From Hexactinellida sp. DTS-2022 (taxonomy: Eukaryota > Porifera > Hexactinellida): a DNA stretch of 64,000 bases. The stretch covers positions 1,488,001-1,552,000 of the forward strand of contig JAPNXP010000008.1 of assembly GCA_028753945.1 (NCBI GenBank). The letters are read 5' to 3'. A program made the translations under genes and the position numbers. Positions 10,819 through 46,130 of the stretch are shown in pieces (within the stretch, counting starts at the first letter, position 1; each line of letters starts with the position of its first letter). The notes below the pieces were generated by a model that was not told the origin of the DNA, searched no databases, and saw only the letters and a list, made by a program, of their open reading frames with translations.

Positions 10819-11868
10819 CACAGTGGGAATTTTCAGAGGTGTAAGTGGAAATAGGAAAACTATGCTAGATAGACTCTAATTTTAATATTATTTGCAGATA
10901 GGTAATCGGTAGCTGCAAACTGAATGCCAATATGAAAAATTATGCACGTAGTCTCCTAAACATAGTTCTAGACAATTCATGTTAATTCTGTCATAAATTA
11001 TACCTTAGGTTTGTTAACAAATTTTCAATGTTAACATATGATTATTGATTATATTTCTTGAACAAGGTATCATTTTTTCAAAAATCCTAATATATATGGC
11101 TCAAAGTTATTAATTGACCGACGTCGCGCCTTTAGTAACTTTTTATAAGAATATTACATCACCTAGGTATTAGAGCTAGTAGAAACCAGTTTTGACAATA
11201 ATGTTGAGATCTCCGTATGTAAAGTATGTTTCCAATAATTTGCCGACAGTTCCGCTCCCTGCTAAACTTTAATTCATCAAATTGTCACCGAATTGTTTGA
11301 TATTAGTCAGATTCTAATTCATCGTAATCAATAACTCACTGGATTCGAGTCAAGAATTCAAAAGCTTCCTTGTCATACATAAGAAATAATTATATTGAAG
11401 GAGTATAATTTGTACTTGAATCACTTATCTTAATAAATTAAATAATATTAAAATAAAATATCTGTGGGCAAATTTGGGCGCATCTGGAATTTTGTTTATA
11501 TTGAAGTTAAATATGTCCACTTTAAATTAAAAAACACTAAAAAACCCGCCGGAGCCTGGACATGATATTTCCCATCACCTTGAAGGAAGAGGACTAAGCA
11601 AGAATTTATTGTCCGAAATCGTATATTTTCGTTAGCCACATCCCATAATCAATTTATACTGAGATGTTATTTTTATATCCGCAAAATTGAAATTCTGATT
11701 GTCAAAAATATAATACTTTGAATAGTGATAACAACCAAAATATTTCCTAGATCAGAATGAAATTAGGCATTCTAGGTTATTTGATATTCTGAATTCAGTG
11801 GCAACCACGAATTCAAGTTCAAGAGAATGATAATTTTATCCTGGTTTTCCAAATAGATTCCCACTGTG
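10819..11868. mobile_element. Transib-like (CACAGTG-ended) non-autonomous element T1
   Basis: The element begins CACAGTGGGAATTTTCAG and ends with the complement of CACAGTGGGAATCTA. It is flanked by GAATT (10814-10818) and GAATA (11869-11873), a 5-bp TSD with one mismatch. Subterminal GTGGAAATAGGA is shared by both ends of the family. It is 1050 bp with no transposase. Homologous copies at 18009, 33568 and 45687 confirm the ends. A CAC(A/T).TG terminus with a 5-bp TSD is the hallmark of Transib/ProtoRAG elements. Confidence 0.65.
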
Positions 11869-11873
11869 GAATA

Positions 11874-12805
11874 TTTTACGGTGAACAAGGCCTACTAAGG
11901 ATAATGAAAATAGTCAAGTAAACATAATTTTTTAGAAATAATCATATCTGGGAAAACTCCGAATCTCTTTTGTCGAATGCTATTCAAAATTATATAAATC
12001 TGGTCTCTAGAAGTGAGGAAAATTTTATACAAAAGGAGCCGAAATAACTAATAAGCCAACTGCACACTTCTTTCTAGTGCATTTTTGGATGCCCATTTAA
12101 GTCTTACACGATTTAAAGTCGAAAAAATTTCTCAAGTTCCATTGATTTCTATTCAGTGAGCAACACAATATGAAGCCTCAGAAATTTTGACAGACTTAGC
12201 GAAATTGGTCCAAATTAAGATCAGCGATATTTGTCCTATCGCAGATCCGCAGAGCTTGTGTAAAATTTACACATAGTTTTGCAAAGAAAAGTTTGAACAC
12301 CAAACTTCAAATCCTAAAGGATACTGAATGAGATACTATACAGTCTAATGAAAAGTCTCTTGTAATTATACAGATCATGTACAATCAGAAAAATGTATCT
12401 TGATAATCTTAGTTTCGAGGTGTGAAAATTAGAAAGTGCAAATGAAATCTTTCTGGAAGAACAATATATTACTGTGGCGACTATTATGTTGTGGACAATT
12501 ATTGAAATTGCTGCCTTTATTTTTTAGGTTTTTTTTTATCGTAGACGGTATTTTCTCACACTTAAATTTCAGTATAACTGCTAAATCAAACTCTATCGGT
12601 TCAACTTGTTAAATATTAATGTATAGTTTCAACTTTCGATAAATATATCGATTTAACTTTCGATTTCGAACTGGCTTCCATTGAGGTAAGTATTTCTATA
12701 CTACACGTATATAAAAGCTTTATCTATAAAAGGGATGAAGCATTGGGTGGACAGTAAATATTAAACAATGTAATCAATATGAATTTATAAACAAATACAC
12801 AAATA

Positions 12806-12837
<32 letters not shown>

Positions 12838-13259
12838 GTGAATGTCCTTATACCATGGTTTTTGTCCTTCAAAAATTGTCCCTAGTGTAGGGCTTTAAGG
12901 ACAAAATTGTCCTTAGATCGTAGGCTTAGAGAACATCGACATGGATAGACACAATGACAATGACATCTAAGACACATACACAGTATTACACACAATAATC
13001 TACAGTTGTCCAATGTAAATTCTAAGATCCTCTCATCTATAATGTGATACATTGCTCCATTGACATTTGGACATGACTTCATTGACATTTGGACTTTACA
13101 TCAATTTACTAGGTTTCACATCTGAGGGGACACCATCTAAAACAACAACAAACAATAAAATTAGATAAGTCGAAACAAAATCAATGAAAAAATCTTTAAT
13201 TCACGATTTTCAATTGTTCAAGAATTTTAATAAGGAGTTGTAAATATATATTACAATAT
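11874..13259. other. Non-coding stretch with a dispersed-repeat end and a CA run
   Basis: 12540-12640 (ACACTTAAATTTCAGTATAA, GGTTCAACTTG) resembles the terminal part of the dispersed repeat at 39691-40620 and, inverted, 55380-56270. A CA microsatellite lies at 12800-12838. No gene was seen. Confidence 0.4.
12800..12838. repeat. (CA)n microsatellite
   Basis: About 19 CA units with small interruptions at the start. Confidence 0.95.
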
Positions 13260-13905
13260 GCTGCAGTAAAATTGCGCAGGATGTTCTATCTACAAGTATC
13301 GCAATTAACACACAATTAAATCTCCAAACATTATCATCACCAATTTCTCCTAAGAAGATTTAAGAGAGTTGTACAATAATCTCTCCAGAGCTTGTACAAG
13401 TTTAAACAAGAGGTTGTAATCACTTTCAACTAGAACGAATAATTCCTCAGGATAATAACCAAAGAAAGCAGCAGTTCAGATGGATACTTTAGTCGACTAC
13501 GATCTGTTAACTGGAGGAGCTCAAACTCCGAAAGAAGTGAAGATCAAATAGAAACTCTTTATAAATGTCAAGGTATCGAGGTAGACACGACGAAGTTGGT
13601 GATGTTTAAAGTATGATGAACAGCGTAACCTGCGAAAAGGTTAAAGAATTGTGTATTAATTCGATGTACGTATGAAAAAATTGCATATATCTTCAAAGAA
13701 CGGTTCCAAGATAATATGGTCACCACAATCAAAATTAATATAACAGGGAAAAAGGATTTGACGAATGTTTGAAAGTCCGATTGCTGAGAAAATACAAAAT
13801 ATATTCAAGAAAGTGGGGGATCCCGACATCACACGATATAGTGCTAATGATGCTAGAGCGGGTTTGTTTACAAAAAGGAAGCTAGAACGTGTGAAAACCC
13901 ATAAT
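13260..13905 (-). pseudogene. P transposase C-terminal remnant
   Basis: Minus-strand fragments, in the order expected for the C-terminal third of the transposase: ALYRVMSGSP (matching LYRMMSGSN), a stretch ending ILEPFFEDICNF (matching LEPFLDEIHDL), KSFYLIF, LTDRS/LK-like sequence, ESDYNLLFKLVQALERLLYN, and a tail resembling the cysteine-containing end. Multiple frameshifts. No P-type ends were found nearby, so this is a bare fragment. Confidence 0.7.
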
Positions 13906-13944
13906 TTTGAATTAAATGGTTGGCGATTCCTGGTAGTGCTGTTG

Positions 13945-14065
13945 TATGACAGTTTCACTACCATGACAGAATTACTATTTTATATTACAGTGACCATGGA
14001 TGCCTAGCCATGACAGTTTTACTACTTTCCATGACAGAATCACTACCTATGACTTGAATAATAAT
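13945..14065. repeat. Short dispersed repeat, inverted partner at 17893-17997
   Basis: TATGACAGTTTCACTACCAT .. ACAGAATCACTACCTATGAC, with the same segment inverted at 17893-17997. The inverted partner was the insertion target of the hAT element ending at 17892. Its own class is unclear. Confidence 0.6.
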
Positions 14066-14620
14066 CAAGCGTATCTTAGTTACTCTACAGCCCCTCATAA
14101 TGACTTCCAAAATGTCTCCTTCACACTTCAAAATCGAAAGCAAGACCATTTACCGCGATGGGAGGAATGGTTCCTGTCTAATTTGAAGGTTGCGAGCATA
14201 GTAAAGCACGCCTTTTAGAGATTTTAGCGTGAGAGCGTGATATATTGCATTCACCTGTTGAAAAAGTGACGCATCCTCCAGCTGTTTATAGAAATTTAGC
14301 AGTCTGGTGCTGCGGTGGAAGAGATGCTACGATCTGACATTGATGACAACTTTGAATCTAAATGATAGAATACACACGTAGTTCAATCAAAACTGAAGTA
14401 GAATCAAACCCTTTTTGGTATACTTAGGTATTCACGAATGTCTTTTTGCAATTCCCGCCATGTAAACTCCATATTAATCATTTCAGTAGTACTATTAATA
14501 CCTATATGCTCAGGATCATGATAGATATGTAGAATATTGGGGATCTCTCCGATTGTAGGATAGCGATATAAACACTCATTTCAATCTGATATGTGTGACT
14601 AAGTATTTTTAAATAATAAG
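14066..14620. other. Non-coding stretch
   Basis: No family motif or repeat end recognised. A 72-codon frame at 14000-14218 overlaps the dispersed repeat and has no resemblance I can name. Confidence 0.35.
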
Positions 14621-14621
14621 T

Positions 14622-15110
14622 ACAGTTGACTCCGCTTAATTGGGTCAATTTGGTACGAGGTTGTTTTGTCTAAGTTTTGCAATAGTAAACCATAAAAATA
14701 ATGAAGTAAATATCAAGGTGACCCAAATTTATTCTTTAATAAACGATGATTGAACTCTTAAACATAGAGTTTTGTACCCAAGAGAAGATTTAGCAAATAT
14801 TTCTTGGATATTTCACCACATAGGAGCAATTTTTAATAAAATGAAAAGAAATCAACCCAATTAAGAAGTTTCACCGGTGTCAGAGCAAATCCTGTTCCCC
14901 AGTAAAATTGTTCCCCGAACAACATTTCCTAGGACAAATTGTTCCTAGAAAATGTGCATGCGAGGTTTAATTAATTAAGAGATGCAGAATAAAAATGCCG
15001 TGCTTATCCAGTGCAAATATTGTTGAGATGAAAAGTATTCCTTAGGAAATAATGTTCGGGGGAACAAAGAGATTAGGGAACAGGATCTACTACGACACCG
15101 GTTAAATTAA
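14622..15110. mobile_element. pogo-like MITE left end with a second inverted-repeat MITE inside
   Basis: CAGTTGACTCCGCTTAATTG at 14624 is the pogo-like terminus. Its other end is not clear. Within it, about 14876-15103, is an independent inverted repeat: GTGTCAGAGCAAATCCTGTT at the left pairs with the complement of GTGTCGTAGTAGATCCTGTT at the right, and GTTCCCCGAACAACATTTCC pairs with GGAAATAATGTTCGGGGGAA. Both ends lie in an ACCGGT context. Confidence 0.55.
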
Positions 15111-15152
15111 AGCTAAGTAAATAGGCTAGATAGAAACGAAAAGTAGCTCAAG

Positions 15153-15330
15153 GGAGGGTCCCTCCAAAAAAAGGGGGGAGTGGGGGGGTTCTCCCACGCA
15201 CCCTTTAGAGGTCCACGTGCGCTGATAGGGGTCCACAGGATAAAAAATGGTACTACGGTCTATATGGGAGGGGATCCACAGAAAGAAAGGGATTTGCAAA
15301 GGAAGAAAAAGGATGGGAAGGGCTACATGA
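15153..15330 (+). other. G-rich island in AT-rich DNA
   Basis: Several runs of G (AAAGGGGGGAGTGGGGGGG; GGGAGGGGATCC; GGAAGGG) on one strand, unlike the flanks. It could form G-quadruplexes. It may be part of an old mobile element; no ends were seen. Confidence 0.5.
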
Positions 15331-15928
15331 ATATAAATATATTTTCAAAACAACCATATAAAAGGAATCGGACAAACCTTGTATAGTTGACCTTTACAAT
15401 CCAGTTGAAAGTAGACGAACGTTCGTTGTAATATTGCCTTTTTAGATTTCGAGGGAGCAAGTTCAATAGGGGATCACCAGTAAATGGAAAAAGTACCAAA
15501 TTGCGATACTCCACATACTCCATTTTGAATACAATCAGAGTTATTGATAATCTACTGGTCTAATAAAATGCAATTTAACTAGAACAAGTTTAATGAAATA
15601 AACACATAACTGTGTAAATGGAACTAAGAAACGCGTGATTAATATTCAAGTAGTGTTTGCCGGAAAAGACCATCCCGGTAAAACCCCAAGAAAAAAACGG
15701 TTTTTCCATCCCGGAAAAGGGAAGTAAATTCTAAAACCCACTTATGACCATATATGGCAACACTGCATGCCCATTTATGGTCAGCCTCTATATACAAGAG
15801 ACAGATATTCTAAAGAGATTCTACACTTTTAGTGCCACCGATTGTTAAATTTAGGACTTTTGAGAGTTTTCCCTATGTTAAATTAAGGTTAGTGGATTAA
15901 CCACTAAATACAATGAAATACGTATATG

Positions 15929-17579
15929 CGTGACCTACGTTATATAAGGAATGTTGCTTGTAAAATTGAAGCACGTGTAATTTTGAGTCAAAGCATTAGC
16001 GGACCATGGATATTACTTTACCGGGTAATTTTGACTCAAATGCATTAGTGGACCATGGATATTACTTTACCGTGTAATTTTGAGTCAAACCAAGTTCCTT
16101 TTGTGTAATAATACATACAGTCCGACTCAATCTTATTTTGACAAAGATAATTTTTAAGATTGTATTAATTTGATTGAATAATTTAACAATTGACGATCAA
16201 TTAAAACTCAATTCAAGAGCTCAGTTGGAACTCGTTTTCTAGAAGTAGTCAACCAATTACCGGGGCTAATAGTAATTCTAAATATTCAGATAAAATTGAA
16301 CAAAGAAACATTTTATAACTTCTATAAGTGTTTATAGAATCCGCTATAATATATATTGGACTTATGTATTATTACACAAAAGGAACTTGGTTTGACTCAA
16401 AATTACACGGTAAAGTAATATCCATGGTCCACTAATGCATTTGAGTCAAAATTACACGGTAAAGTAATATCCATGGTCCACTAATACGTTTGACTCAAAA
16501 TTACACGTGCCTCAATTTTACACGCAACAGGACTATGCACCAACTTTGTGAAACTGGACGATGGATTAAAGGAAGGCTATTGATAAAAAGGTTATCTATC
16601 GTATCTAAATAACTAGTAGTGATAGACCTCATAAATGTTCTATAACTATATAGGAACATGGTATCAAGGTATACATAGCACCCTTCAGAATTGAGCTATG
16701 TCATCATTTGATTACGTAATCGCAATTTTTGGTGGGTATTATCGTGTTTTTAAAGCTTGCTTTTACATAATTAGACGCGTTATAAATGTTCAAAATTGTA
16801 ACAAGATGATGTCCATTACTAGTTAGATGAAATATATCGAAATTATAAATGGAATGTTGACACATTCCTCGGTTTCCAGGGAAATGTAAATTTCCCAAAT
16901 TGTACCATAACTAAAAACTGTCTATTTTATGTAAACTAGGCTAGTGCTGATCTATCCGCAATAGGTAACTTCCTATTCATTGATAATACATTACATATGC
17001 CTAACTACAATAATTTTGAGAGAATAAGATAATTAGAACTTAATTCCTTATGAGGTAATACACTCATTATCTCAAAGATTATTGTAGTTAGGCATATATA
17101 ATGTATTATCAATGAATAGGAAGTTACCTATTGCGGATAGATTAGCACTAGCCTAGTTTACATAAAATAGATAGTTTTTTAGTTATGGCTCATTTAGGAA
17201 ATTTACATTTCCCTGGCAACCGAGGAATGTGTAACATTCCATTTATAATTTCGATATATTGTATTCAACTTGTTATGGGCATCACATGTTACAATTTTGA
17301 ACATTTATAACGCGTCTAACTATGTAAAGCAGGCTTTAAAAACACGATAATACCCACCAAAAATAGCGATTACGTAATCAAATGATGACATAGCTCAATT
17401 CTGAAGGGTGCTATGTATACCTTGATACCATGTTCCTATATAGTTATAGAACATTTATGAGGTCTATCACTACTAATTATTTAGATAACGATAAATAACT
17501 TATTTATCAATAGCCTTCCTTTAATCCATGGTCCAGTTTCACAAAGTTGGTGCATAGGCCTTATATAACGTAGGTCACG
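15929..17579. mobile_element. P-superfamily foldback element with ~0.5-kb arms
   Basis: Ends are CGTGACCTACGTTATATAAG and its complement; GTATATG at 15922-15928 and 17580-17586 is a perfect 7-bp TSD. Apart from the insertion at 15952-16529, the whole element is one palindrome. The left arm (about 16530-17020) mirrors the right arm (about 17075-17560) around a ~50-bp loop near 17045. Examples are CAACTTTGTGAAACTGGACG against CCAGTTTCACAAAGTTGG, and TAGGTAACTTCCTATTCATT against its complement. The arms share many boxes with the element at 42398-43434. No protein is encoded; the ends resemble those of the P-type coding elements (CATAGCCTAC..ATAAGGCC). Confidence 0.85.
15952..16529. mobile_element. 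Foldback insertion inside the P foldback
   Basis: Ends TGTTGCTTGTAAAATTGAAG and the complement of TGTTGCGTGTAAAATTGAGG. Each arm (about 15960-16137 and 16360-16525) carries a ~62-bp direct duplication (ACCATGGATATTACTTTACC twice on the left, mirrored on the right). Its removal restores continuity of the host palindrome (ATAAGG next to ACTATGCACC). The TSD is short or unclear. Confidence 0.7.
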
Positions 17580-18859
17580 GTATATGATATGTTGACTAAT
17601 AGTACCAAAGGTGCTAGGTTAACGCTGATAAGTGTGGTATGAGGAATTCTTCGATACCAAATAAATCTTTTAAAAGTAATTACTTCTAACTAAGTTCTAA
17701 CCATGTGAAATATATCAAAGTTGTGAAATAAGCATTAAATTGACTGTAGACAGTAAAATAGTATCCGCACTGTCACCGAAATATACTAATTATGAGTAGG
17801 CCAGTCAACAGAAAAAGGAATTAAGTCCAGAAAAGGGCGTTTTTCCTCCTGCCCCGGTCTATTCTAGAAAAGGGCGGTTATTACGAACACTGTATTCAAG
17901 TCATAGGTAGTGATTCTGTCATGCTAGTGCATTCATGGTCACTGTAAACATAAAGCCGTAATTATGTTATGGTAGTGAAACTGTCATACACAGTGCAATT
18001 AATGAGTGCAATGGGAATTTTCAGGGGTGGTAGTGGAAATAGGAAAACTATGCTAGATAGACTCTAATGAAGTATTATTGACATATAGGTTATCGGCAGC
18101 TACAAACTGAATGGCATTATAAAAAATGATGTACGTAGTCTCCTAAACGTGGTTCCAGACAATTCATGTTAATTCTGTCACAAATCATACTTTAGGTTTG
18201 TTAACAAATTTTTTATTGTTCACCCACGAATCCATGATTAATGATTATATTTCTTGAACAAGATATTTTTTTTCAAAAATCCTTATATATATGGTTCAAA
18301 GTTATTAAGTGACCCACGTCGCGCCTTTTCCCGCATTTAGTAACTTTTTTATAAGAATATTACATCACCTAGGTTTTAGAGCTAGTGGAACTCAGTTTTG
18401 ACAATATTGTTGAGATTTCCACTAGTTTTCCGACAGTTCAGCTCCCTGCAAAACTTTAATTCATCAAATTGACACCGAATTGTTTGATATTAGTCAGAAT
18501 CTAATTTATCGTATCCATAACTCACTGGATTCGAGTTAAGAAATTCAAAAGCTGCCTTGTTATGCATAGAAAATAATTTTATTTGAAGGAGTATAATTTG
18601 TAATTGAATCACTTATCTTAATAAATTATTTAATATTTAAAGAAAATCTCGGTGGGCAAATTTTTGCGCATCTGGAATTTGGTTTATATTGGAGTTAAAT
18701 ATGTCTACTTTATATTAAAAACATTAAAAACCCGCATGAGTCTGGACGCGATATTTGCCATCACCTTGAAGGAGGGGGACTAAGCAAGAATATATTGTCC
18801 GAATCGTATATTTTCCGTTAGCCACATCCCATAATCAATTTACACTGAGATGTTGTTAT

Positions 18860-19784
18860 GAATATCTAATATACGAGCCCTTCGGTCTCGGTCGCTTTGC
18901 GACAGATCGGTGATACGCACTCAAGTTAACGGCCGCTGTGCAGCCTTACTCCTCACAATTTTTACCATGAAAATGGTAGAAAGGGACGTTATGATTTTTA
19001 ATTTTCATTAATTTGTTTACAAATTTGTGCAAACAACAACAACAACTATTCATATTTGAATATTATAAACGCGAAATCCGTGTTCAGAAAACTTGTTTAC
19101 CTATAATACCCGTTGAGAGCTAACATCTAGGTCGATTTTGAATTTTCATTAATTTGTTTACCCATTTTGAGTAAAGAACAACAACAAAAATTCATATCAG
19201 AATTTTTAAACGCGAAATTCGTGTTCAGCATACTTGTTTACCTATAATACATGTTGAAAGCTAACTTCTAGGTTGATTTTGAATTTTCATTAATTTGTTT
19301 ACCTATTTGTGTAAACAACAACAACAAATATTCATATTATAAATTCATAAACGCAAAATTCGTGTTCAGCATACTTGTTTACCTATAATCCCCGTTGAGA
19401 GCAAACTTCTAGGTTGATTTTGAATTTCATTAATTTGTTTACCTATTTTGTGTCAATAACAACAATAAATATTCACGTTAGATATTTATAAGTGCGAAAT
19501 TCGAAATAATCATACTTGTTTACCTTTATAACATTTGTTTACCAATTATAACAATTGACAGTTAGTTTATATATCATATATTAATGCGGTTTCTTTTCCC
19601 CCATCACTTTAATACAATCCGGACAAACACACACACAAACAAACAAACTAACAAACAACAATCGAGAGTTAATAATATAGATATAAATAAACTATGCATA
19701 TCAGAATATTGAAAAAAGAACTCATTCTCAAGAACAGTGTTCTCAAAATCTGCAATGAAGCATTAGCAACTTTCTATAACCGCA
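18860..19784 (-). mobile_element. Helitron-like insertion with minisatellite core
   Basis: The T1/T2 comparison shows this block is inserted. Its left edge (ACGAGCCCTTCGGTCTCGGTCGC) resembles, inverted, the Helitron-like 3' end near 29360-29400 (GACCGAGACCGAGCGAACTAGT). The centre is a tandem array (18992-19540). The right part holds a CACACAAACAAACAAAC simple repeat (19624-19658). The class is inferred from the end motif and minisatellite content. Confidence 0.45.
18992..19540. repeat. 141-bp tandem repeat, about four copies
   Basis: Units start at about 18992, 19132, 19273 and 19414 (TGATTTTGAATTTTCATTAA), period 140-141 bp; the last is partial. Each contains AACAACAACAACAA and ACTTGTTTACCTATAAT. 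Single diverged units occur at about 54980-55110 and, inverted, near 51040-51130 and 51240-51290, so the core also exists as dispersed monomers. Confidence 0.85.
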
Positions 19785-19972
19785 AAATAGAAATTCCAAT
19801 TGTAAAGAATCCAATCTTTGAATAGTCATAACAACCAAAATATTTCTTCGATCAGAATGAATTATGAATTGCAAGGTTATTTGATATTATGAATTCAGTG
19901 GTAACCACAAAATCGAGTTTGAACAGAATGATAATTTTATCCTATTTCCACCTAAATTCCCACTGTGGAGTG

Positions 19973-23439: not shown

Positions 23440-24209
23440 CATGGCCTACTATAATATGGCTATACATGCTGCCGAATCATAGTAGAAAATAAGAGTCCAG
23501 TTTTGTAATTTAATTCTAAGAAAAATAATGTTTCCTATTGGCATAATTTACATTGTGTATGGGGTAATCAACCATTGCGAGTCCAATGGAACCACTTTTG
23601 AGATTCTGAGATTTGTGGTTAAGCCGTTTAGGCGCCAAATAACGATGACATCACAAATATATAAAATATATAATTCGAGTCTAAAGAACTACGAGAAAAT
23701 GAAATAATTTGCTAATATACTTAGTATACATTTTCCGAATATATAATGAGAATGAATATATATAAACCAGCAATTAAATACACTTTATGGACGAAAATAG
23801 TAAGTTGTAATTCGGATAATACTTGTATTTTAGCATGTGGTTGCTTTAGAATTTTTCAGAATGTCGCCATTTCTGTGATTTAGTAGCCTTTGGGGTATGA
23901 AATAAATTCCTATTTAGTATTCGTGTTATAAAATTATTAGAAAGTAAGAAGAAAATGAAATTTATGATATTGGAATGTTTTCATTTACCATAAATTTTTA
24001 CCGTCATCGTTAAATGGTGCCTAAACAGCTTAACCACAAATCTCAGAATCTCAAACTGGTTCCATTGGACTCGCAATGTTGATTACCCATACACAATGTA
24101 AATTATGCCAATAGGAAGCATAGTTTAGCATAGAATTAAATTACAAAACTGGACTCTTATTTTCTACTATGATTCGGCAGCATGTATAGCCGTATTATAG
24201 TAGACCATG
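23440..24209. mobile_element. P-superfamily MITE with ~200-bp inverted repeats
   Basis: Ends CATGGCCTACTATAATATGG and the complement of CATGGTCTACTATAATACGG. ACTGAAC at 23433-23439 and 24210-24216 is a perfect 7-bp TSD. The inverted repeats run about 23440-23640 and 24010-24209 with high identity (GGTTAAGCCGTTTAGGC / GCCTAAACAGCTTAACC near the inner limits). The ~370-bp centre is unpaired and non-coding. Confidence 0.85.
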
Positions 24210-24353
24210 ACTGAACTAATTAATATATTATTTCTGAACACTATGAAGCGATATAATTTGAAAAGTTCTGAAACTTTAGGAAAACTTGTTTAATAGTAAT
24301 GTAAATATAAAGCATTTGTTAGAATAATGAAATTCTGAATTTGTATTTTTAGG

Positions 24354-25389: not shown

Positions 25390-25612
25390 TTATGTAGTAT
25401 TAATTAATCTTGAAAGTGGAAAATAGTTTTCACTACGTGTCAAATTTACAATTTGAGTATAACATGAACAGTAAGTTGACTTAAAAGTATGATGTGGTCG
25501 AATACATTTTGAAAACAAACACTTGGGATGAAGATCATACCATTTCTTAGATAAAGTTGATTCCATTAAAATAGGAATATCATTTGCTGGCAGAGTCAAA
25601 GATGAGTAATTC
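25390..25612 (-). other. Open minus-strand frame beside a P foldback, possible host coding
   Basis: The frame reads NYSSLTLPANDIPILMESTL and continues SKKWYDLHPKCLFSKC. It begins exactly at the insertion point of the P foldback (25613) and lies downstream of the candidate exon at 26545-26856. I could not find phase-compatible splice sites joining the two. Confidence 0.2.
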
Positions 25613-26467
25613 CATAGCATTCTATGCATAAGGCAATGGCACTCACTCAAATTTATGGACCAGGGATTGGTTAGTATAGTCAACTTAATATATGCAATGC
25701 AATTATTCTTCGAAATAAGTATTCCAGGGTGCTTCTACTTATGTAATTTTCTGAGAATTGTGATTATTGTAATATACATTCAAATGGTTATACTCATTTT
25801 GCGCAAAATTGATGGAGTTAAAGAATCGAAATGTATTATCATTGAATAGGAAGTTGAAGACGGGCTATCAATTGGATCCATTGAATAAGCAAGAACTATA
25901 TTTCTTCTTGAGATATGACCTCAATCATTCAAATCACGTTTCAAAGGCAACAGAGGAATGTGGTAACATTCCATAATTGATTCTGAGATATTTTATGCAA
26001 AATGACTCGTATATGGGTTAGTCCATGGCCTACTATATAATACGGCTAGAAAAGTCAAGCATTTGCCATTTTATTTCCAGGCCAGTGTTTACTTTCTAAT
26101 TGCTCGTAAATAAATCACCTATTGTCATGGAATAAACTAAACTTAGGTTTTCAAATACGCTGGAAACATCTAAAATACTTTTGAGAATGATTTCTCATCG
26201 GATTTAACCACAATGACGTAATCAAATATACGTCATTGGCATAGTTGGCCTATTAACAAAACGGTGACGTCATTTCGACATAGTGCTTTCTCAAAAATAT
26301 GCGTCTTGTACATGACTACCTTTATAAAAAACAATTACAAAAGTAGATCACCCTGGAATACTTATTTCGGAGAATAATTGCATTGCATATATTAAGTTGA
26401 CTATACTAACCAATCCCTAGTCCAGAAATTTGAGTGAGTGCCATTGCCTTATGTATAGAATGCTATG
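25613..26467. mobile_element. P-superfamily foldback, asymmetric copy
   Basis: Ends CATAGCATTCTATGCATAAG and the complement of CATAGCATTCTATACATAAG; flanks GTAATTC / GAAATTA agree at 5 of 7. It is the same family as 48780-49847. The right arm keeps a piece (GCGTCTTGTACATGACTACC) that the left arm lacks, and the loop sequence lies close to the left end, so one arm suffered an internal deletion. The central ~300 bp are unrelated to the other copy. Confidence 0.75.
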
Positions 26468-26544
26468 GAAATTATCATCAAAATAAATAATAATATAAAA
26501 AATGCGGAAGTCAATGCATAAAAGGTAGAGTATTCTATGCTTAC

Positions 26545-29891: not shown

Positions 29892-30131
29892 CCGTTTTCC
29901 CCGAATAAGCGCCGGGTCAATATAAATGACATTGGTATGATAAAATTTATACACATTAGTTGATCACTGTAATATAATTCCATTGATTTTGACAACTTCA
30001 GTAGGTATACTGTTGGTGGAAACCATTAGAACCCACCTAAATATTATATTCTCGATTTTTCACAAATATTTCACCATAATTTTGGCCCACGAAAACAATA
30101 AGCGCCGAGGCGCTTATTCGGGGAAATATGG
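29892..30131. mobile_element. TA-inserting MITE, CCGTATTTCCCCGAATAAGC family
   Basis: Ends CCGTTTTCCCCGAATAAGCG and the complement of CCATATTTCCCCGAATAAGC, flanked by TA on each side, 240 bp. Near-identical copies at 36503-36741 and 47093-47352 fix the ends. Confidence 0.85.
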
Positions 30132-30139
30132 TATGCACA

Positions 30140-33567: not shown

Positions 33568-34718
33568 CACAGTGGACGAGAATGACAATTTAGGGGAAAT
33601 AGGCATTTTAGTAGCAGATAGCCAATCATGAAGTATTATTGACATATAGGTTATTGATAGCTGGGATCACATTAGTATCATTGAAAATGATATATTTAGT
33701 CTCCTAGTAAAGTTCTGAATGATTTAATGTGATTTGATTAACAATTATGTTTTTGATTTGTTAACATCCTTTATTATTCACCCATTATTATTGATAAAGT
33801 ATTTTACCTTGGGGAAAAATGAGTAAATCTAGTCTTACTTACCCCAGGAAATTAATACTGCAGCATATGTAAGCAGGTCAGATGTATACTAGGTGAGATT
33901 CTCGCAAATATAAGTACTCTTAACAATCTTAGATCTCTTTTATAACGTAGTTCTCTGTTTTTGATAATAGCTAGCTCACTAAATATCGTCCCAAGAATAT
34001 AAAACCCACTTATTGGAATTTCGAGAGCCTTTTTGAGTTCATAGGTTGATACCTGGTTGATGGTTTTGCAATTAATAGATGGTATACTATTTGTTGTTTA
34101 TTTTTAGATTCTAGGAAGTAAGTAGGGTAAACATATATGCATTACTATATTCCCAGGCAATATGTCAAAGTCTTCGGCCAGTTCTTTAACCAAATACATG
34201 GTCGCCGTCGCGCCTTTTCGCGGGGCTGTAATTATTTTATTATATAGCCTGTATATAAATGTATAATATAAAAGTTTCAAATTATGTGGCCACTACTGGC
34301 CACAACAAGTTTCAACACTTTATTGTGAGGAGATATGATGTCCGAAATGGTAGTCAGCTCATGAAATACAAAATGTTACGCTAACAAATATTTTAGCAAG
34401 TAGTCTAGCTAATTGGTGTCATTCAAGATGTAATATACATCTCATTTATTACTGAAAATTACGAGTCTATGCGCCTAATACAAAAAGAGATTTATAAGAA
34501 ATATTAGGTAGGCGATTTTAACCACTGATATTGACCATGAATTAACATTTTAACATTACTCAATAATAGCTTAGTGGGTGTGGTTATAACACGAATACAG
34601 TATATTGCCAATTGAAATGCTTTCTAGGTTTTCGATAGTGCTTAGTATGATTAACTTATTATTGAATAGATTTGTACAACTTGAAAATCAAGCCTATTTC
34701 CAGGGTCTAGCCACTGTG
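33568..34718. mobile_element. Transib-like element T3
   Basis: Begins CACAGTGG and ends CCACTGTG; AACTT at 33563-33567 and 34719-34723 is a perfect 5-bp TSD. It is homologous to T1 near the left end (GAAGTATTATTGACATATAG, TTAGTCTCCTA, TTTGTTAACA) but is a diverged subfamily inside. 1151 bp, non-coding. Confidence 0.7.
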
Positions 34719-34723
34719 AACTT

Positions 34724-35410: not shown

Positions 35411-35428
35411 CGTAGCCTACTTTATATA

Positions 35429-36359: not shown

Positions 36360-37562
36360 ATAGTTAATGATAATCTGATAAATTTACGTTTAGTGATACG
36401 TATTTGAAGAACAAAAGAGTTGTTCTAAATTTATCGGCAAGAAAAAATTAGCAGCAGTAAAGATGAGCTTACTCAAGATAATCATCTGTACACATCGGAA
36501 TACCGTGTTTCCCCGAATAAGCGCCGGGTCAATAAAAATGACATTGGAATGTTAAAATTTAAGCACATTAGTTGATCACTGTATGTAATTCTATTGATTT
36601 TGGCAACATCGGTACGTATACTGTTGGCGGATACCATTAGAACCGACCAAAATATCATATTCTGGATTTATCACAAAATTTCAGGATAATTTTGGCCCAC
36701 GAAAACAATAAGCGGCGTGGCGCTTATTCGGGGAAATACAGTAAATACAATTCAATTTCCAGATAGCAATATCATCATGTTTTCCACGTTAATAAACGTG
36801 AGTCCCTAATAACCTGGTAGATGAACCGTCTACAAGCAAAATCAAGAGTGATTATGGTTTTCTGAAGTAATTAATCAATATCTTCCATAAAGATATTACT
36901 GTAGTAAGAATAGGCTCAGACGGATACGTTAGTCCGCAACGATCTGTTAATAGCATGAGCTTAAACGCAGAATGTGATTCAAGATCAAAAACAAACTCTT
37001 TATCATAAGTTGAACCATCAGTGCATACATGACATTCCTTAAATCTTGTCAGGAACATATGGATTGCATAATGTGCGATAGAAGCTAAAGAGTGAGGACC
37101 TGCTGAGAGCATTCAAAGGATAATAAATTGCCAATTTCATCAAGAAAAAAGGCGCTACAACTATTTAATCCTCACTAGATACGTATAACATAGGGGTTAA
37201 AAAGAGTTGACAAATGTATAAATCGATTAGAAAGAGTCTTGTTAGTCTGCGACATGTTTAATATACTGGAAAGTTTAAGACGTCGCTCGGAAAAAAGAAT
37301 CTGAAGCTAAGAACTATAGTAATAATTAGAACCCGAAATCATATGGAAGTCCAAATGATGTTCCAACGGATCAGTTTGCAAAAACCATGATAATACATAA
37401 GAAAAGGCAGAAAATTCATCTACATAGAAAAATTCATATACGTTTTCCAATCGCAATATGTTCAAAATTGGGAAAAAGTATTGATTTACCAATATTTTTC
37501 AATGATTTAACCAATTATTTGGCATACTTTTCAAAATACCGTATGGACAAAATCAAATGTAA
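36360..37562 (-). pseudogene. P transposase remnant with internal deletion
   Basis: Minus-strand order: TLTFDFVH next to the 37565 MITE, NNWLN (about 37520), then after a deletion of roughly 450 bp relative to 56835-60436, YVLSWFLQTDPLEHHLDFH and MISGSN (37310-37400), FLDEIGNLL, HYAIHMFLTRFKECHVC, KEFVFDLESH, LTDRCGLTYPSEP (36900-37080), NYDDIAIWK, [MITE], CDVY and the C-terminal tail. Stops and shifts throughout. Confidence 0.8.
36503..36741. mobile_element. TA-inserting MITE, CCGTATTTCCCCGAATAAGC family, within the P remnant
   Basis: Ends CCGTGTTTCCCCGAATAAGC and the complement of CTGTATTTCCCCGAATAAGC; TA at 36501-36502 and 36742-36743. It interrupts the codons for the conserved IWK..N..CDVY region, confirming the ends by comparison with P2 (7000-7030). 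Confidence 0.9.
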
Positions 37563-37564
37563 TA

Positions 37565-39382: not shown

Positions 39383-39690
39383 GTTATTATTATTATTATT
39401 ATTTATCCGTAGCCACTCCACAGAACAGAGTTTTATTAACTAAGAGCCCTAAATTTTTTGGATGGGTGTCTCATGGGTTACAGATGTGCACCTGGGGTCA
39501 CGATTTTTTATTACATTTTTTTGGACACATTTTTGCACCTGTTTAATATTGAAACAGGAACAATAAATAGTACCCGAAAATTAAATTTATATGCATTCGA
39601 TAGAGAATTAAATTCTACACCTTTTCACAGTGCACGAATTTTCAAATTGTACTTAGTTTGTGCCACAATTGAGTTGCAAGTTTCCTTTGT

Positions 39691-40620: not shown

Positions 40621-40955
40621 AGCGTGGGAAACTAAGCAGGAACGTTATCCTACAACCACATAGATTATTGCTAGGTTGAAGCCAGTGCTCTAAATGCCAA
40701 TGCCATTAGACGTTTGGGTCTCGAAATTCTCCAGAAAAAGGCCTATAGTTCAAACCAAGCAGCAATTAACTGGTGGCTGTTTGGATAGTTGAAATGGACC
40801 CTTCGTGGAAACGGTTCAAGGAGTTCAGTAAACTAAGTTCGTTGGGAGAACTGTGGGAAAGTGTACCGGCAAGGAATTTTTCGCCACAGGCATTGACAAA
40901 GTTCCAAAAAGGTGGGACCGGTGCATAAAACTTAAGGAGGAATACATTTAAAATT

Positions 40956-42397
40956 TAGATAACTATTTAGATTAACAATTGTTAGCATACGTAATAGTTT
41001 TATGATCCTATTAATTAACGGATAATCCATGTACATATAATGAAAAAGAATGATTCCTACCAGCACCTGCAGGGTTGCATATAAAATAAATTCTGATGTT
41101 TCCACTTAGTCCAGGAAATAATAAGCAATCAGTACACATAGCAGTTGATCCTTATCCACGAATTAATGTAAGTGCAGCTAGCGTAGACATATCTGCGGAA
41201 AAGGTTTCTGCTGGATATTAGAATTTCAGGCGGCCCAGATGACGGATAAGTATTTACACGGACTTCCCCAAAATATAAATCCAACCAGCCAAAGTATTTT
41301 TCGCCCGGCCACATAATTTTTCTACTTTCAATCGGGAAGATTTTGCAAAAGCTAAATATTGATCTACGTATTAACTGGATATGGTATACATTTGCCATGT
41401 TATGTAGCCATGTTCGAATTTCGAAATAATTGACTATGATATCTCACTAATCTTACCACATTCATGCGTCGACAAGGAATCTGCAACAAAAGACTATTTA
41501 ACGAGATGTAATTATGTTAAGTAATGACGGCATAAAATTGGTAAGGATTTTAATTGTATCGACACTTAGAATTTGGAGATGAGAGTACAATCCAAAATAC
41601 ATCATTTGATTCAAGAACAAAAAAAAAGTAAGAAATGCCAAATTAATGTTTCGCAACCAGACTGATGAATATAAAATATACAATATAAAATGTGAATCAT
41701 TAGGTCATCATTTAATTATGAATAAGTTTATAGTATATGATTAATTGAGAAAATCACAAATGCACAGGGTCTAATAATTTCAGAGATTTATCTCAAGGAG
41801 ATCATGCGGGTTATACACGATTAATATACAGTATTTTCACAGGTAGACTGGAACGAGAAAATTACACACAACATGAGAAAATGGTGATTTTGGGATAATA
41901 GTTATTAAAGTCAATGGTCAACACATAGTTGTCTTAATACAGTTAGCCAATCCACTCTGTAGGTTGGGAAATCTTTGTCGTTTTTTGCTACCTCCTCTAT
42001 AAATGTAAAATAACAAGACCGGGCTGGCCCGTATGGTAAAATTTGTACAGACAACGAACTGGGACCGCCGGTCCCGGTCCTGTCCATACCGTAGGTCTAG
42101 TGGTCCCGTCGAAACCCCGCTTTAACACCTCCAAAAAAATGTGAATTCAAATTTTTTGCTATTTTAGTATACTTAACATATTGATTTATGTAAATATCCA
42201 TGTTGAAGCATCCATAAATGTTATCATGCTGCTAGAAGCTTGAATGAATACTAATTGTTGTTGTTCAAATTCCTTATGCCGGAGATAGTGTATCTGAACT
42301 TCTAGACTGGTTCCAACGAGTTAGGGCATCAAAGTTGCAGTGTACTATGAATTGACTAGACACTTATTGAGAATTTGAAACTTTCAACAAGTTGATT
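40956..42397. other. Non-coding stretch
   Basis: Mostly AT-rich. A minus-strand frame at 41129-41398 has mixed coding-like composition in two frames but no family I recognise. A GC-rich patch with CCGGTCCCGGTCC at 42020-42115 may be an old hAT-like repeat. Confidence 0.35.
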
Positions 42398-43434
42398 CGT
42401 GACCTTAGTTATATAAGGCCAATTCACGACTTAAAAAAATTGGACCATGCATGAGTTCGAAGTCCATTGTAAAATAGAGGGTACTTTTTTATCCCGATTA
42501 TTAGAACTGGTAGACCTGAAATATAACTTGTAACTGTATGGGAACATCCGAACATGATATCAAGGTATACATAGCACCTTTCAAAATTGTAATATGTCAT
42601 CATCTGATGGCGTAATTGTCAATTTTCGCGCGAATTATAATGTTTTTAAAGCATGCTTTTAACACAGTTAAACGCTATATAAATGTTCAACATTTGGTAC
42701 ATAGTTAACTCGTATTCCGTTTATAGTATGAGCTCATAAACTAAAAAAAATATTAAAGTTAGGCATATAAAATGACTATCCATGAATAGGAAGTCACCTA
42801 GAGCGGACAGATTAGCACTAGTCTAGTTTATATAACATTTAAAGTTTTGGAGTTATGGCTCATTTTAGGAAATATACATTTGCCTCACAACCGAGGAATG
42901 TGTCAACATTCCATTTATAAATTCGATATATTTTATTTAACTAGATCTGGGTATCACTATGTACCAATGTTGAACATTTATAAAGCGTTTAACTGTGTTA
43001 AAAGCAGGCTATAAAAACATGATAATTCGCGGGAAAATTGACGATTACAGCATCAGATGATGACATATTACAATTTTGAAAGGTGCTATGTATACCTTGA
43101 TATCATGTTCGGATGTTCCCATATACAGTCGACTCCGCTTAATTGGGTCACATCGGGACCAGGTCATTTTGACCCGATTAAGCGAAGAAACCGATTAACC
43201 GAAAATATTTTAAGCAAAACTGTAATTCCGTCCCAAAAATCCGGTGAAATTTTGACCCTTTTAAGCGGAGAAACCGATTAAGCGGAGTCTACTGTAGTTA
43301 CAAGTTATATTTCAGGTCTACCATTTACTAATAATCGGGATAAAAAAGTACCCTCTATTTTACAATGGACTTCGAACTCATCCATGGTCCAATTTTTTAA
43401 AGTCGTGAATTGGCCTTATATAACGAATGTCACG
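42398..43434. mobile_element. P-superfamily foldback element
   Basis: Ends CGTGACCTTAGTTATATAAG and the complement of CGTGACATTCGTTATATAAG. GTTGATT at 42391-42397 and 43435-43441 is a perfect 7-bp TSD. The outer ~300 bp on each side form a near-perfect inverted repeat (e.g. TTCGAAGTCCATTGTAAAAT vs ATTTTACAATGGACTTCGAA; GATATCAAGGTATACATAGC vs its complement). The middle is a weaker palindrome whose boxes (GGAATGTGTCAACATTCC, CATGAATAGGAAGT) are shared with 15929-17579 and 48780-49847. Hosts a pogo MITE. Confidence 0.88.
43126..43294. mobile_element. pogo-like MITE in a P foldback arm
   Basis: Ends CAGTCGACTCCGCTTAATTG and the complement of CAGTAGACTCCGCTTAATCG; TA at 43124-43125 and 43295-43296. 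CCGATTAAGCGGAG-like boxes alternate inside. 169 bp; present in only one arm of the palindrome, so younger than it. Confidence 0.92.
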
Positions 43435-43759
43435 GTTGATTATATTATTTAAATAATTTAGAATTTAGTTTGTTATTAACGTTTTCACCAATCTAACCTG
43501 GAAACAATTTCTTCCAGTTTAGGGTCGCTAATATAACATATATTGTATATTGTATATAATTCAAATTTAGCTCCGCATATTATATCCGGAGCTAAAATCC
43601 TTTACATAAAAAAATTAATGCTAATCCGTGAATGTTTTTTTGGGATTTAAATGTAAACTCATATAATGATATCAGTTACAGGTAACTTCTCTCAATAACT
43701 AGATAATTAACTAATTATCTCCAACACCGGAATTAACAGAAAATAGTATGCAGCAGATG

Positions 43760-43911
43760 TCGGATTTAAGTCACCGGTTATAAGAACATATCAGATATAA
43801 GAACACTATGTTGGAAAACGGTTGCCATATACCCTATATAATTTATGTCGTTATAAGAATATGCCGGTTATAAGCACCTTAAGTGCAGTTACCGACGATG
43901 TGCTTATAACC
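43760..43911. mobile_element. Degraded pogo-like MITE fragment
   Basis: Repeats of CGGTTATAAGCAC / CGTTATAAGAA in both orientations, in the style of 52439-52849. It interrupts the repeat-family pseudogene right after its TVDTDVVEL motif. Ends not precise. Confidence 0.5.
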
Positions 43912-44812
43912 GGCATCAAGATAACTCTACCACATCGGTGTCAACTGTGCGTATTGAAACTTTGGTATTCCCTTCTTTCACAGCATCTTCCAGATGCAAA
44001 AATATCCTTGTGTCTGCCCCTTCATGTGTGAATGGAGCTAGCCTTGAAATATTTTTTGGAAGTTTACAAAGGACCTGTGTGCTGAATACCTGTTTATTCC
44101 TACTTAATGGATGCTATACAAGTTTGTTGGAAAGAGTAAAGCTCTACTATATTTTCATCAATGCGGCGAAACTCTTACCAGTTTCTAGGAACTAAACTTA
44201 AAGGCTCCACACTTCTCCGAACACCATTCCCCCTCTTTCTTCGTGTTTCGGCTGTCGGGTTTGTACTCGTTGCAAACAATGTCGACTCGGCTTGCATTGC
44301 AACTGGGACTCAATGTATGGCAGGAAAACTTGTTTTGAGTAATCCGAGAGAGTCTTTGCAGAAGCAGGACGTAGCATATTCACAATAACAGAATAATAAC
44401 TTGTACATTGGGATTGATGGCGTCCTCCTGAAAGGCCACCAAGTCCTCCAAGCATCTAACTAGATCGGACTTTGTACCCAAACTGAGTTTACCATTTTGT
44501 GATAACGCTGGTGGATATGCATGATTTTCATGCTAAAAAAATCATCTAGGTTACCGCCAAGTACTTGTATGTAACATACAGCCGAGAATGAGGGAACAAT
44601 CATTCTTCAGAGAAGTTAGCTGTAGATGTGACTTAGTCTTCTCTCGGAAAGGAAGCCGGTTAAAGAGAGGAATATTGTTCTTATTGATGGGAGCTGAAAT
44701 GAGTTTGGTTTAATTGACAAGCTGATCACTAACATAGGTGTCATACTGCTCTTGTCTTAGTTTCTCAATTTTACTCACAGTGTTAATAACGGCTGGAAAG
44801 AAAGGCCTCTAC

Positions 44813-45267
44813 TAGAGGTGAGCGTCGTGTTCAACTTTTTTTAAGACTACACGAACACGAAACATGTGACATGAACACGAATTGCGCCACACCAATATGT
44901 CACGATACGAACACGAACACGAAACACGAACATCGACATGAAATGCAAATTGGAAAAATAAATGAATAAATATAATGAATTAAGATCATAACATACGAAT
45001 ATTATACAATAACTTGTTCACCACAAGTATTGTATAATACTAATAATAAAACCCCATGAAACTTTAACCGAACACGACACGAACACGACACGATACATGA
45101 ACCTTGAACAAGAAAACGACACGAACACGAACACGAAATCTTTGCCCACCACGACACGAAACATTAAATTTGAACACGAAAACGACACGAACAGGAAAAC
45201 TTTGGTCTAACACGACACGAACATGAATTCGTGTAGTGTCGTGTTCGTGTCTTATCACTCTGCTCTA
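44813..45267. mobile_element. hAT-type MITE made of ACACGAACACGA repeats
   Basis: Ends TAGAGGTGAGCGTCGTGTTC and the complement of TAGAGCAGAGTGATAAGACA. GCCTCTAC (44805-44812) and GTCTCTAC (45268-45275) form an 8-bp TSD with one mismatch. The interior is mostly iterated CGAACACGA in the two arms. It splits the repeat-family pseudogene. Confidence 0.8.
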
Positions 45268-45686
45268 GTCTCTACTATCCAGTACAAGAAGATCGCTGCT
45301 GTTCTCAGTGAATAGGGTTTCTCATTACTTCTATTGTATTTGCTAGACTTTCCACATCTCAAGCGAAGGCCAATTGTACGTGTTTAGACTCCTCGTTTTC
45401 AGCATAATTTATTGTGCTGAGAAATATTCGAGATCAAGAGTTATGTGTAATGAGATCATCATGTTACACCAATTCTCAAAAAAGCAATTTTTGTTGTTTC
45501 AGAATCGCAGTGTCAAAGTCGAACAAAATTCAACAAATTATATTATGTTGATGAAATATTCAAGTTAGCTTTATCACGAAGTTTACATTGTCATTGGCAT
45601 GTATTGAAATCAGTGTACATGAATGCATTTTAACTTCTTATACTGTATAATCTAAAATTATAATACATTCCGACCAGAATGTTATG

Positions 45687-46130
45687 ATTCGGACGCATTT
45701 ACTAATTTCCAATATTGTTCAAGAACTTTTGAGAGCCATCATGAGCCATTGGTTTTTACATTTTAAATGAAAGGTTATGATGATACCTTCAAATTAAAAA
45801 GTATTCTAGATGCGCGAAATGGCGCGACTAATGACTTTTAAGCATAATATATTAGGATTTTAACCATTTTAGAAATTTTTTATCAGGTTCAAGAATAATA
45901 ATCAATAATCATGGTTGAACAATAAATTTTTGTCAACAAACCTAAAATTTAATTTATGACTGATTTATCATTAATCGTCTAGAACTGCGTTTAGGAGACG
46001 ACATATATAATTTTTGATATTGCCATTCAGTTTGCAGCTACCGAAACCTATATGTTAATAATACTTCATTAGATTCTATCTAGCATAGTTTTTCCGATTT
46101 CCACATACACCCCTGAAAATGCCCACTGTG
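45687..46130 (-). mobile_element. Transib-like element T4, one end lost
   Basis: The right terminus reads CACAGTGGGCATTTTCAGGG on the minus strand and is collinear with the left end of T1/T2 (CTATGCTAGATAGA, GTCTCCTAAACGCAG, GTTTGTTGACAAA). TTATG lies at both 45682-45686 and 46131-46135, consistent with a 5-bp TSD, although the left end lacks CACAGTG. It interrupts the repeat-family pseudogene after its VYMKAITQ-like codons. Confidence 0.6.

Follow-up and report, generated by a model that had tools for sequence, protein, structure and literature searches.

In the 64-kb window, by which we mean the whole stretch of DNA analysed, the heptamer CACAGTG occurs 15 times compared with 4.2 expected, a count reached by none of 100 shuffles. 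The repeats annotated in the window and their parts are given below, the spacer being the distance between the terminal heptamer and a second, internal motif, and TSD standing for target site duplication.

10819–11868, minus strand: non-autonomous Transib, family A, complete; TSD GAATT/GAATA
10847–10855, plus strand: GGAAATAGG at long spacing, exact (9/9), spacer 21 from the heptamer at 10819–10825
11354–11678, minus strand: retained stretch of an autonomous element, 5' UTR and first codons of a T4-type transposase frame
18009–19967, minus strand: family A copy with a damaged left heptamer, expanded by a tandem array; TSD GAGTG/GAGTG
18035–18043, plus strand: GGAAATAGG at the long-spacer end, exact (9/9)
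18992–19568, no strand assigned: tandem array of a 141-bp repeat, family D1, within the family A copy
19941–19949, minus strand: GGAAATAGG at the short-spacer end, spacer 11, exact (9/9)
33568–34718, minus strand: non-autonomous Transib, family B, complete; TSD AACTT/AACTT
33595–33603, plus strand: GGAAATAGG at long spacing, spacer 20
34693–34701, minus strand: GGAAATAGG at short spacing, spacer 10
45793–46130, plus strand: family A fragment, long-spacer end only, matching family A positions 1–339 at 80%
46094–46102, minus strand: GGAAATCGG (8/9) at long spacing from the heptamer at 46124–46130

An earlier, sequence-only reading had proposed four copies here, three of which hold. The copy at 10819–11868 carries CACAGTGG at both ends, with one mismatch in its TSD; its left end corresponds to the 3' (long-spacer) end of the transposase and its right end to the 5' (short-spacer) end, where the second motif is degraded (best match 5/9). 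The copy at 33568–34718 has intact ends on both sides, and its orientation was inferred from the spacers (left long, right short). In the copy at 18009–19967, the TSD and the right end are intact, whereas the left heptamer is damaged and reads CAATGGGAA instead of CACAGTGGGAA. The fourth proposed copy (45687–46130) was rejected as a full element: its similarity to family A, followed from 46130, ends at 45793, and the proposed TTATG/TTATG has no support as a complete element's TSD because neither a heptamer nor a family match was present at 45687. The CACAGTGG ends, the 5-bp TSDs and the many copies genome-wide support identification of the window copies as non-autonomous Transib transposons. 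Family A derives from a T4-type element by internal deletion; the stretch 11354–11678 matches L072 positions 1–147 at 92.5% and positions 297–475 of the T4 5' stretch (L099) at 89.5%. We take the window repeats to be defunct passengers of a Transib family that is large and was active until recently.

Genome-wide, the expectation of a real family with a 5-bp TSD was borne out: among 97 elements with placed ends, all of which were kept in the junction counts with no rows dropped, 61 have exact and flush TSDs (54 of 84 in a first set and 7 of 13 in a follow-up set). When three same-flank pairs are collapsed, 58 of the 94 distinct elements have an exact flush 5-bp TSD, 14 an exact TSD plus 1–6 extra bases on one side, and 22 no exact TSD relation; mismatched flank pairs, used as a control, gave a flush 5-bp match in 0.2%, and the flush elements T2, T3, T6 and T7 were located partly with the help of the TSD. 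Among the 22 are elements that are flush with one TSD mismatch (the window copy at 10819, L112/L113, L175/L176 and L190/L013), elements sharing 4 bp (L016 and L041), and elements with poorly placed ends (L156/L157, L034 and L185/L186). Transib termini are defined by a heptamer of the CAC(A/T)(A/G)TG type, and an inverted terminal heptamer of this type accompanies the 5-bp TSD here. The target preference over 58 sites is symmetric and CANTG-like. Passages of PMC8289069 report GC-rich TSDs for other Transibs; no such bias was seen among 54 flush copies, with a GC content of 39% in the TSDs and 37% in the flanks.

An active Transib or RAG-like transposase had been predicted to exist or to have existed elsewhere in the genome, and transposase genes are indeed present, within complete elements that share the ends and TSDs of the window copies. 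A search for RAG1/Transib-like cores with the RAG1 Pfam profile gave 33 places with E of 0.001 or lower, and a single transposase query against the same genome gave 70 listed matches, 62 of the 942 candidates having been scored; 13 of the 70 matches listed have frames of 700 aa or more without interruption. Long copies with window-type ends are represented by four complete elements of 3.0–3.3 kb, which have CACAGTGG ends and exact 5-bp TSDs; each holds a single long forward frame (711–731 aa) for a RAG1-core-like DDE transposase. Among solved proteins, the Hztransib transposase of Helicoverpa zea is closest (PDB 6pqn; profile E 1.5e-52), followed by weaker profile matches to lancelet RAG1L (6.2e-26) and RAG1 (4.2e-17). 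T2 residues D270, D374 and E627 align to D126, D225 and E436 of Hztransib, the latter taken as catalytic from passages of PMC6941560. By this alignment, the predicted transposases are shown to keep the positions of the Transib catalytic triad. Their N-terminal region resembles the RAG1 nonamer-binding domain (NBD) in a weak match: the 16 best sequences retrieved from the PDB with the N-terminal profile are all RAG1, hence one protein, and the best of them, 3gna (E 0.0094), we take to be the NBD. Lancelet RAG1L and Hztransib are absent from these PDB matches, and the solved Hztransib chain lacks an NBD-like counterpart because only four of its residues precede the point matching T2 residue 164.

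A conserved nonamer, which the sequence-only reading had suggested looking for at a fixed spacing, was found, though at two different spacings; that reading had the kind of element right and missed the asymmetry of the ends. The second motif lies 10–11 bp from the heptamer at the transposase 5' end and 20–21 bp from it at the 3' end, and is GGAAATAGG in most families and TCGATTAG in one. A genome search for CACAGTG-N{3,33}-GGAAATAGG returned 416 sites, against 0 for the reversed control. Among the 100 listed of these 416 sites, the spacers peak at 10–11 (39 sites) and 20–21 (56 sites), and 18 of 18 facing end pairs combine a short with a long spacer. In a motif-free register scan covering 11 elements or families, the best register was +9/+10 in 10 of 11, with T2 tied with 0 and with T2 (0.15), T7 (0.42) and C17 (0.08) not significant alone; the facing pairs and the scanned families are not all independent, because families A, B and C have long ends alike at 69–83%, and A, T4 and C1:2213127 are closely related. 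Most elements whose ends could be paired carry one short-spacer and one long-spacer heptamer–nonamer end, and with GGAAATAGG the spacers are 10–11 and 20–21 rather than 12 and 23 bp (±1), their length depending on where the motif is taken to start. At six more transposase loci with examined flanks, both ends were identified in two, the 5' end in one, a 5' heptamer without GGAAATAGG in two, and no clean end in one (C1:15928407, in the stretch examined). The 3' ends of C12:1045541, C5:3979958 and C1:16863367 were not found in the stretches examined, nor was the 5' end of T1.

The asymmetry might be merely inherited, all families descending from an ancestral Transib whose motifs lay ~10 bp out of register, with no role in pairing. 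The likeness of the long ends fits such a descent, as does the identity of the T3, T6 and T7 transposases to T2 (69, 46 and 43%). Nevertheless, the +9/+10 register stayed despite divergence of the spacers and even of the second motif, and both ends of the TCGATTAG family changed in concert, with spacers of 11 and 20 kept. We consider inheritance without a pairing role unlikely.

Besides flush junctions, 11 copies have 2–6 extra bases between the element end and the TSD, and in 10 of the 11 the first 2 nt of these are palindromic to the flank, whereas permutation gave a mean of 0.85 and a maximum of 6 in 200,000 trials. L097/L098 and L114/L115, which fit a palindrome with one TSD mismatch, were excluded from the counts. 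Of the three 1-nt inserts, two are not palindromic; L022 is palindromic if read on the left and not on the right. Eight of the 10 palindromic inserts lie at the short-spacer end, which is a trend only, because p is about 0.11. The 2-nt palindromes, which would be an indirect sign of nick-hairpin cleavage on the flank, are seen at 10 junctions, with no clean case among the 13 follow-up elements. We read them as possible fossil open-and-shut joints resembling P nucleotides; our literature searches gave no sign of such palindromic scars.

An alternative source of the palindromic bases is gap repair at insertion, by snap-back or slipped synthesis across the 5-nt gaps, instead of later hairpin opening. 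This would suit the predominance of flush TSDs and the inserts of L017, L047 and L049 (3 of 10), self-complementary dinucleotides that fit a palindrome and a direct duplication equally. The other seven, however, fit a palindrome only, and none fits a direct duplication only; each of the 6-nt inserts in L051 and L110/L111 can be broken down into three 2-nt palindromes in a row, suggestive of recurrent events at an element already in place; and the 2-nt size agrees with hairpin opening in V(D)J recombination, human P nucleotides being mainly 2 nt according to passages of PMC3528771. Gap repair is, in our estimate, improbable. Chance, whether through miscalled TSDs, subsequent mutation or bases added at random to the ends, is very unlikely: mismatched flanks do shift by at least 2 nt in 1.4% of pairs, L132/L133 (one of the eleven) can also be read as flush with one mutation, and the follow-up set yielded no clean palindromic inserts, but the observed 10 were never reached by permutation.

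Assignment to Transib rather than ProtoRAG is supported because Hztransib matches ahead of RAG1L and RAG1 and because a RAG2 (PF03089) search of the genome, whose controls were silent too, gave no match. That a RAG1-RAG2-type RAGL transposon mobilises the repeats is highly improbable: it would share the heptamer-like ends and 5-bp TSD, and the C-x2-C-x3-GH-x5-C tail of T2, T3 and T6 is, in our own reading, reminiscent of the RAG1L tail, but T1, T2 and a five-protein profile are all best matched by Hztransib, and each of the four complete elements has one long forward frame instead of convergent RAG1L and RAG2L genes. Lancelet ProtoRAG also differs in spacing (asymmetric 27/31 in passages of PMC8289069 and PMC7204232).

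Ends of the 12/23 type are already known for Transibs of insects. Transib5 of Drosophila and Transib2 and N1–N3 of Anopheles (Kapitonov and Jurka 2005, as given in passages of PMC8355894) likewise combine heptamer ends with 12/23-type 5'/3' asymmetry, whereas the ends described here have GGAAATAGG or TCGATTAG with spacers of 10–11/20–21, across many families in one genome. A search of this genome for the arthropod cuticle domain PF00379 gave no match, the control genomes being silent too. The at least 13 uninterrupted transposase frames contrast with the one or a few copies mentioned in passages of PMC4411706. Hztransib forms flank hairpins (passages of PMC6941560), and its ends are described in passages of PMC8289069 as symmetric and almost or entirely devoid of a nonamer, unlike the asymmetric ends here. 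To our reading, the paired ends resemble the 12/23 rule, in a genome with no detected RAG2 (controls silent): like 12RSS and 23RSS, they have a CACAGTG heptamer, a second 9-mer at a distance of about one or two turns, and pairs of unlike ends, and the 2-nt palindromes recall V(D)J P nucleotides at opened ends. They differ in that the second motif is unlike ACAAAAACC, the register difference is 9–10 and not 11, and they are transposon ends, not immune genes.

Taken together, we propose one explanation, to which we assign a probability of about 0.8: internally deleted Transibs mobilised in trans, synapsis of unlike ends, and hairpin-derived scars. RAG1-like Transib transposases encoded elsewhere in the genome would move the window copies. 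In a transposase dimer, the catalytic cores would hold the heptamers, and the linked N-terminal domains would grip the two second motifs, presumably sitting about one and two helical turns from the heptamers; with the domains so linked, only an unlike pair of ends would synapse well, as in the 12/23 rule, without RAG2. Cleavage would proceed by a nick at the heptamer, the flank being sealed as a hairpin. After a single-end cut, a host nuclease could open the hairpin at a point about 2 nt from the tip, and rejoining of the opened flank to the same end would leave a 2-nt palindrome (P nucleotides), the 6-nt inserts being the product of repeated cut-rejoin cycles. The more specific claim, that a RAG2-less system enforces 12/23-like pairing via a RAG1-type NBD while resident copies record hairpin opening and rejoining, mostly at the short-spacer end, we rate slightly above even odds.

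The Transib transposase is a relative of the enzyme that shuffles antibody genes. A standing question about how adaptive immunity originated is where the 12/23 rule came from. Passages of PMC8355894 list asymmetric Transib ends for only a few insect elements, and passages of PMC7204232 argue that recognition by invertebrate RAGL is relatively insensitive to asymmetry. Here, the transposase families of one genome, many with uninterrupted frames, keep the short/long rule while the second motif has changed in one family, which makes the rule and its protein partner directly testable. The palindromic scars, if confirmed, would make the history of single-end cleavage readable from genome sequence. 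If the proposal is true, the V(D)J pairing rule and its junction chemistry would have been already in place in transposons.

The heptamer CACAGTG occurs 15 times in the window, against 4.2 expected. The sequence-only reading had proposed four copies of a repeat with such ends; three of these stood, one of them with a damaged left heptamer, and the fourth (45687-46130) proved to be a fragment, as comparison with the family revealed no element end at 45687. The copies belong to two non-autonomous families, A and B, and the three that stood are flanked by 5-bp target site duplications (TSDs):

Copies in the window
10819-11868: family A, both heptamers intact, TSD GAATT/GAATA
18009-19967: family A, left heptamer damaged, TSD GAGTG
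33568-34718: family B, both heptamers intact, TSD AACTT/AACTT
45793-46130: family A fragment, similarity to the family confined to this stretch

A 141-bp tandem array lies inside a family A copy (18992-19568), and related sequence occurs beside a Transib gene elsewhere in the genome (L004). Among the other repeats in the window, a short one with CGAATAAGCGCC...GCGCTTATTCGGGGAAATA-type ends, present in three copies (29896-30134, 36508-36760, 47117-47371), is perhaps another MITE family. Large, near-perfect inverted repeats at 15990-16490, 16602-17487, 23440-24209, 25601-26479 and 42398-43434, with arms of 107-162 nt that are 94-98% complementary, are perhaps foldback or MITE elements. Frames at 58891-60007 and 6602-7156 look, by eye, like pieces of P-element/THAP transposases, and 18-593 resembles the integrase core of a retroelement.

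A transposase had been predicted elsewhere in the genome, and the RAG1 Pfam search located 33 places with E of 0.001 or better. One transposase query raised 942 candidates, of which 62 were scored, and yielded 70 listed matches; by a hand count of the table, 13 of these are frames without interruption, 700 aa or longer. Complete elements are as follows:

Complete transposase-bearing elements
T2: 3081 bp, TSD TAGTA
T3: 3010 bp, TSD GGGCA
T6: 3326 bp, TSD CTGTT
T7: 2975 bp, TSD GGTTA
T4: C11:5533026-5537257, TSD CTATA, frame split into two separate pieces
C17:1666011: TSD CATTA
C12:2493570: TSD GACGG

The assignment to Transib, which the sequence-only reading had named together with ProtoRAG, is secure. 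A profile of five transposases matches Hztransib best (1.5e-52), followed by lancelet RAG1L (6.2e-26) and RAG1 (4.2e-17), and the Hztransib residues D126, D225 and E436 (as given in PMC6941560) correspond in the alignment to D270, D374 and E627 of T2. A C-x2-C-x3-GH-x5-C tail, read by eye at the C-termini of T2, T3 and T6, resembles the CCGHC tail of invertebrate RAG1L, as described in PMC7204232; Pfam zf-CCHC matched two of five proteins, below its cut-off (best E 0.013), and the transposase alignment contains no such tail in T1 or T7. T1 (G000:C2:3228069-3230203; L001/L069) is a divergent Transib-like gene with a 698-aa frame, 29% identical to T2, and its phmmer match to lancelet RAG1L (1.6e-21) is much stronger than that of T2 (1.2e-7); its 3' end has a spacer of 21, and its 5' end was not found. 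DNA identities of 98.6-99.7% in the five pairs of T2-type copies compared, and of 99.7% over 2.4 kb between T5 and T6, point to recent Transib activity in this genome.

Across the 112-Mb genome, in which the window lies on contig C17, the first family A copy and the third window copy (family B) retrieved 469 and 506 first-look candidates, respectively, of which 40 each were scored and 60 loci were kept in all. An initial script could pair the two ends of 36 of these 60, 24 of them with an exact 5-bp TSD flush with the ends. After the set was enlarged with family C, further copies and small flank fetches, both ends were placed in 97 elements (84 in the main set, 13 in the follow-up): 61 with an exact flush TSD, 14 with an exact TSD plus 1-6 extra bases on one side, and 22 whose flanks have no exact relation. 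The flanks are the same within three pairs of rows, two resembling segmental duplicates and the third being two different elements at one target; collapsing them leaves 94 elements (58 flush, three with one extra base, 11 with 2-6, and 22 without an exact relation). Elements were selected for locatable ends and not for a TSD, except T2, T3, T6 and T7, which were found by heptamer plus TSD. A symmetric preference resembling CANTG marks the 58 target sites (C 0.40, A 0.53, N, T 0.53, G 0.40) rather than a GC-rich one, which was not seen in these sites or in the GC content of 54 TSDs. The two different elements at one target are T2 (C2:2732852-2735932) and a family C copy (L106/L107, C11:11781730-11782875), which occupy the same position in shared host sequence, with the same TSD and flanks identical over at least 24 bp on one side and 17 bp on the other; this reflects either independent reuse of one target or exchange of elements.

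The heptamer is followed by a second motif, GGAAATAGG, at two distances. CACAGTG-N{3,33}-GGAAATAGG has 416 exact matches genome-wide and none in the reversed control, with spacers of 3-15 in 154 and longer in 262. Among the 100 listed sites, spacers were 10 (6), 11 (33), 13, 15 and 19 (one each), 20 (29), 21 (27) and 22 (2), and all 18 pairs facing each other within 6 kb combine one short and one long end. To avoid presupposing the motif, a further scan took, for each of 11 elements or families, the best 11-mer that its two ends share at any register: an offset of +9 or +10 was best in 10 of 11, tied with 0 in T2. Taken singly, T2, T7 and the C17 element are of poor significance (chance 0.15, 0.42 and 0.08), and family A, T4 and C1:2213127 are closely related; the weight lies in the agreement across cases. 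In the C12:2493570 family TCGATTAG stands in place of GGAAATAGG, with spacers of 11/20; searching the genome for TCGATTAG produced eight matches (control 0): the short and the long end of each of two elements, one extra long end, and three that may be chance. The short end of the window copy at 10819 has lost its second motif (best match 5/9). The short end lies 5' of the gene in all eight transposase-bearing elements whose two ends were located (T2, T3, T4, T6, T7, the C17 and C12 elements and C1:2213127; the T7 motif is weak), and eight more with one end each have the same polarity, as judged by eye from their positions. The 5' heptamer of C5:3979958 and of C1:16863367 lacks an adjacent GGAAATAGG; the stretches fetched contained no 3' end for these two and no clean ends for C1:15928407. 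As a sequence feature the asymmetric bipartite ends are secure, and we infer their role. In the literature on these systems (PMC8355894, PMC8289069, PMC7204232, PMC11844651, PMC6941560, PMC4411706), asymmetric 12/23 ends are ascribed to a few insect Transibs and 27/31 spacing to lancelet ProtoRAG. The arthropod cuticle domain PF00379 had no match in this genome, nor in the controls, which may fit a host outside the arthropods.

The first 475 bases of T4 match the family A copies at 10819 and 18009 in pieces (88-90%), as do the next 147-158 bases, including the first transposase codons (89-93%), and at the short end T4 has the very sequence that is most frequent in family A among the listed sites with spacers of 3-15. 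Family A thus arose from T4-type elements by internal deletion and was presumably mobilised in trans. Its other end is nearer to the transposase-bearing C1:2213127-2216011 (95% over 62 bp) than to T4 (69% over 160 bp).

In the 11 elements with an exact TSD and 2-6 extra bases on one side, 10 inserts start with the reverse complement of the two bases at the edge of the TSD:

Extra bases at junctions
L017: CG, palindromic
L023: CA, palindromic
L049: TA, palindromic
L076/L077: GG, palindromic
L118/L119: TG, palindromic
L136/L137: AA, palindromic
L047: AT then T, starts with a palindrome
L051: TAGAG-CT-AG-CT, three 2-nt palindromes in succession
L110/L111: AA-TT-AA-TTCTC, three 2-nt palindromes in succession
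L144/L145: starts with a 2-nt palindrome
L132/L133: no 2-nt palindrome, the sole exception

All six 2-nt inserts are palindromic. When TSDs were swapped among elements, palindromic starts averaged 0.85, with a maximum of 6 in 200,000 trials; seven inserts fit a palindrome only and none a direct duplication only. Eight of the 10 palindromic inserts are at the short-spacer end. We infer that the transposon would be cut at one end only and the flank sealed as a hairpin, which would be opened 2 nt off its tip and rejoined to the same transposon end, leaving a 2-nt palindrome. In the main set the statistics for the scars are strong, and the mechanism is plausible; a larger set is needed. Against this reading, the 13 follow-up elements contained no clean palindromic insert (1.5 expected pro rata to 10/84), and of the three 1-nt inserts two are not palindromic. 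Among the matches listed from the open-licence PubMed Central literature, titles and abstract openings gave no sign of palindromic bases at resident Transib copies.

A candidate protein partner of the second motif lies near the transposase N-terminus. With a profile of region ~70-165 from six transposases, the 16 best PDB sequences are all RAG1, with the four printed alignments falling on one and the same part of it; lancelet RAG1L gave no match in this PDB search. The top hit is 3gna, which we take to be the nonamer-binding domain (NBD) of RAG1; its E of 0.0094 is weak alone, and the 16 sequences represent one protein. The position and exclusivity of the match make homology of this region to the RAG1 NBD likely. 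The solved Hztransib chain has only four residues ahead of the point matching T2 residue 164. PMC8289069 describes the ends of Hztransib as symmetric and as having hardly any nonamer or none. Hztransib therefore has neither the second motif nor the NBD-like region, whereas the elements of this sponge carry both.
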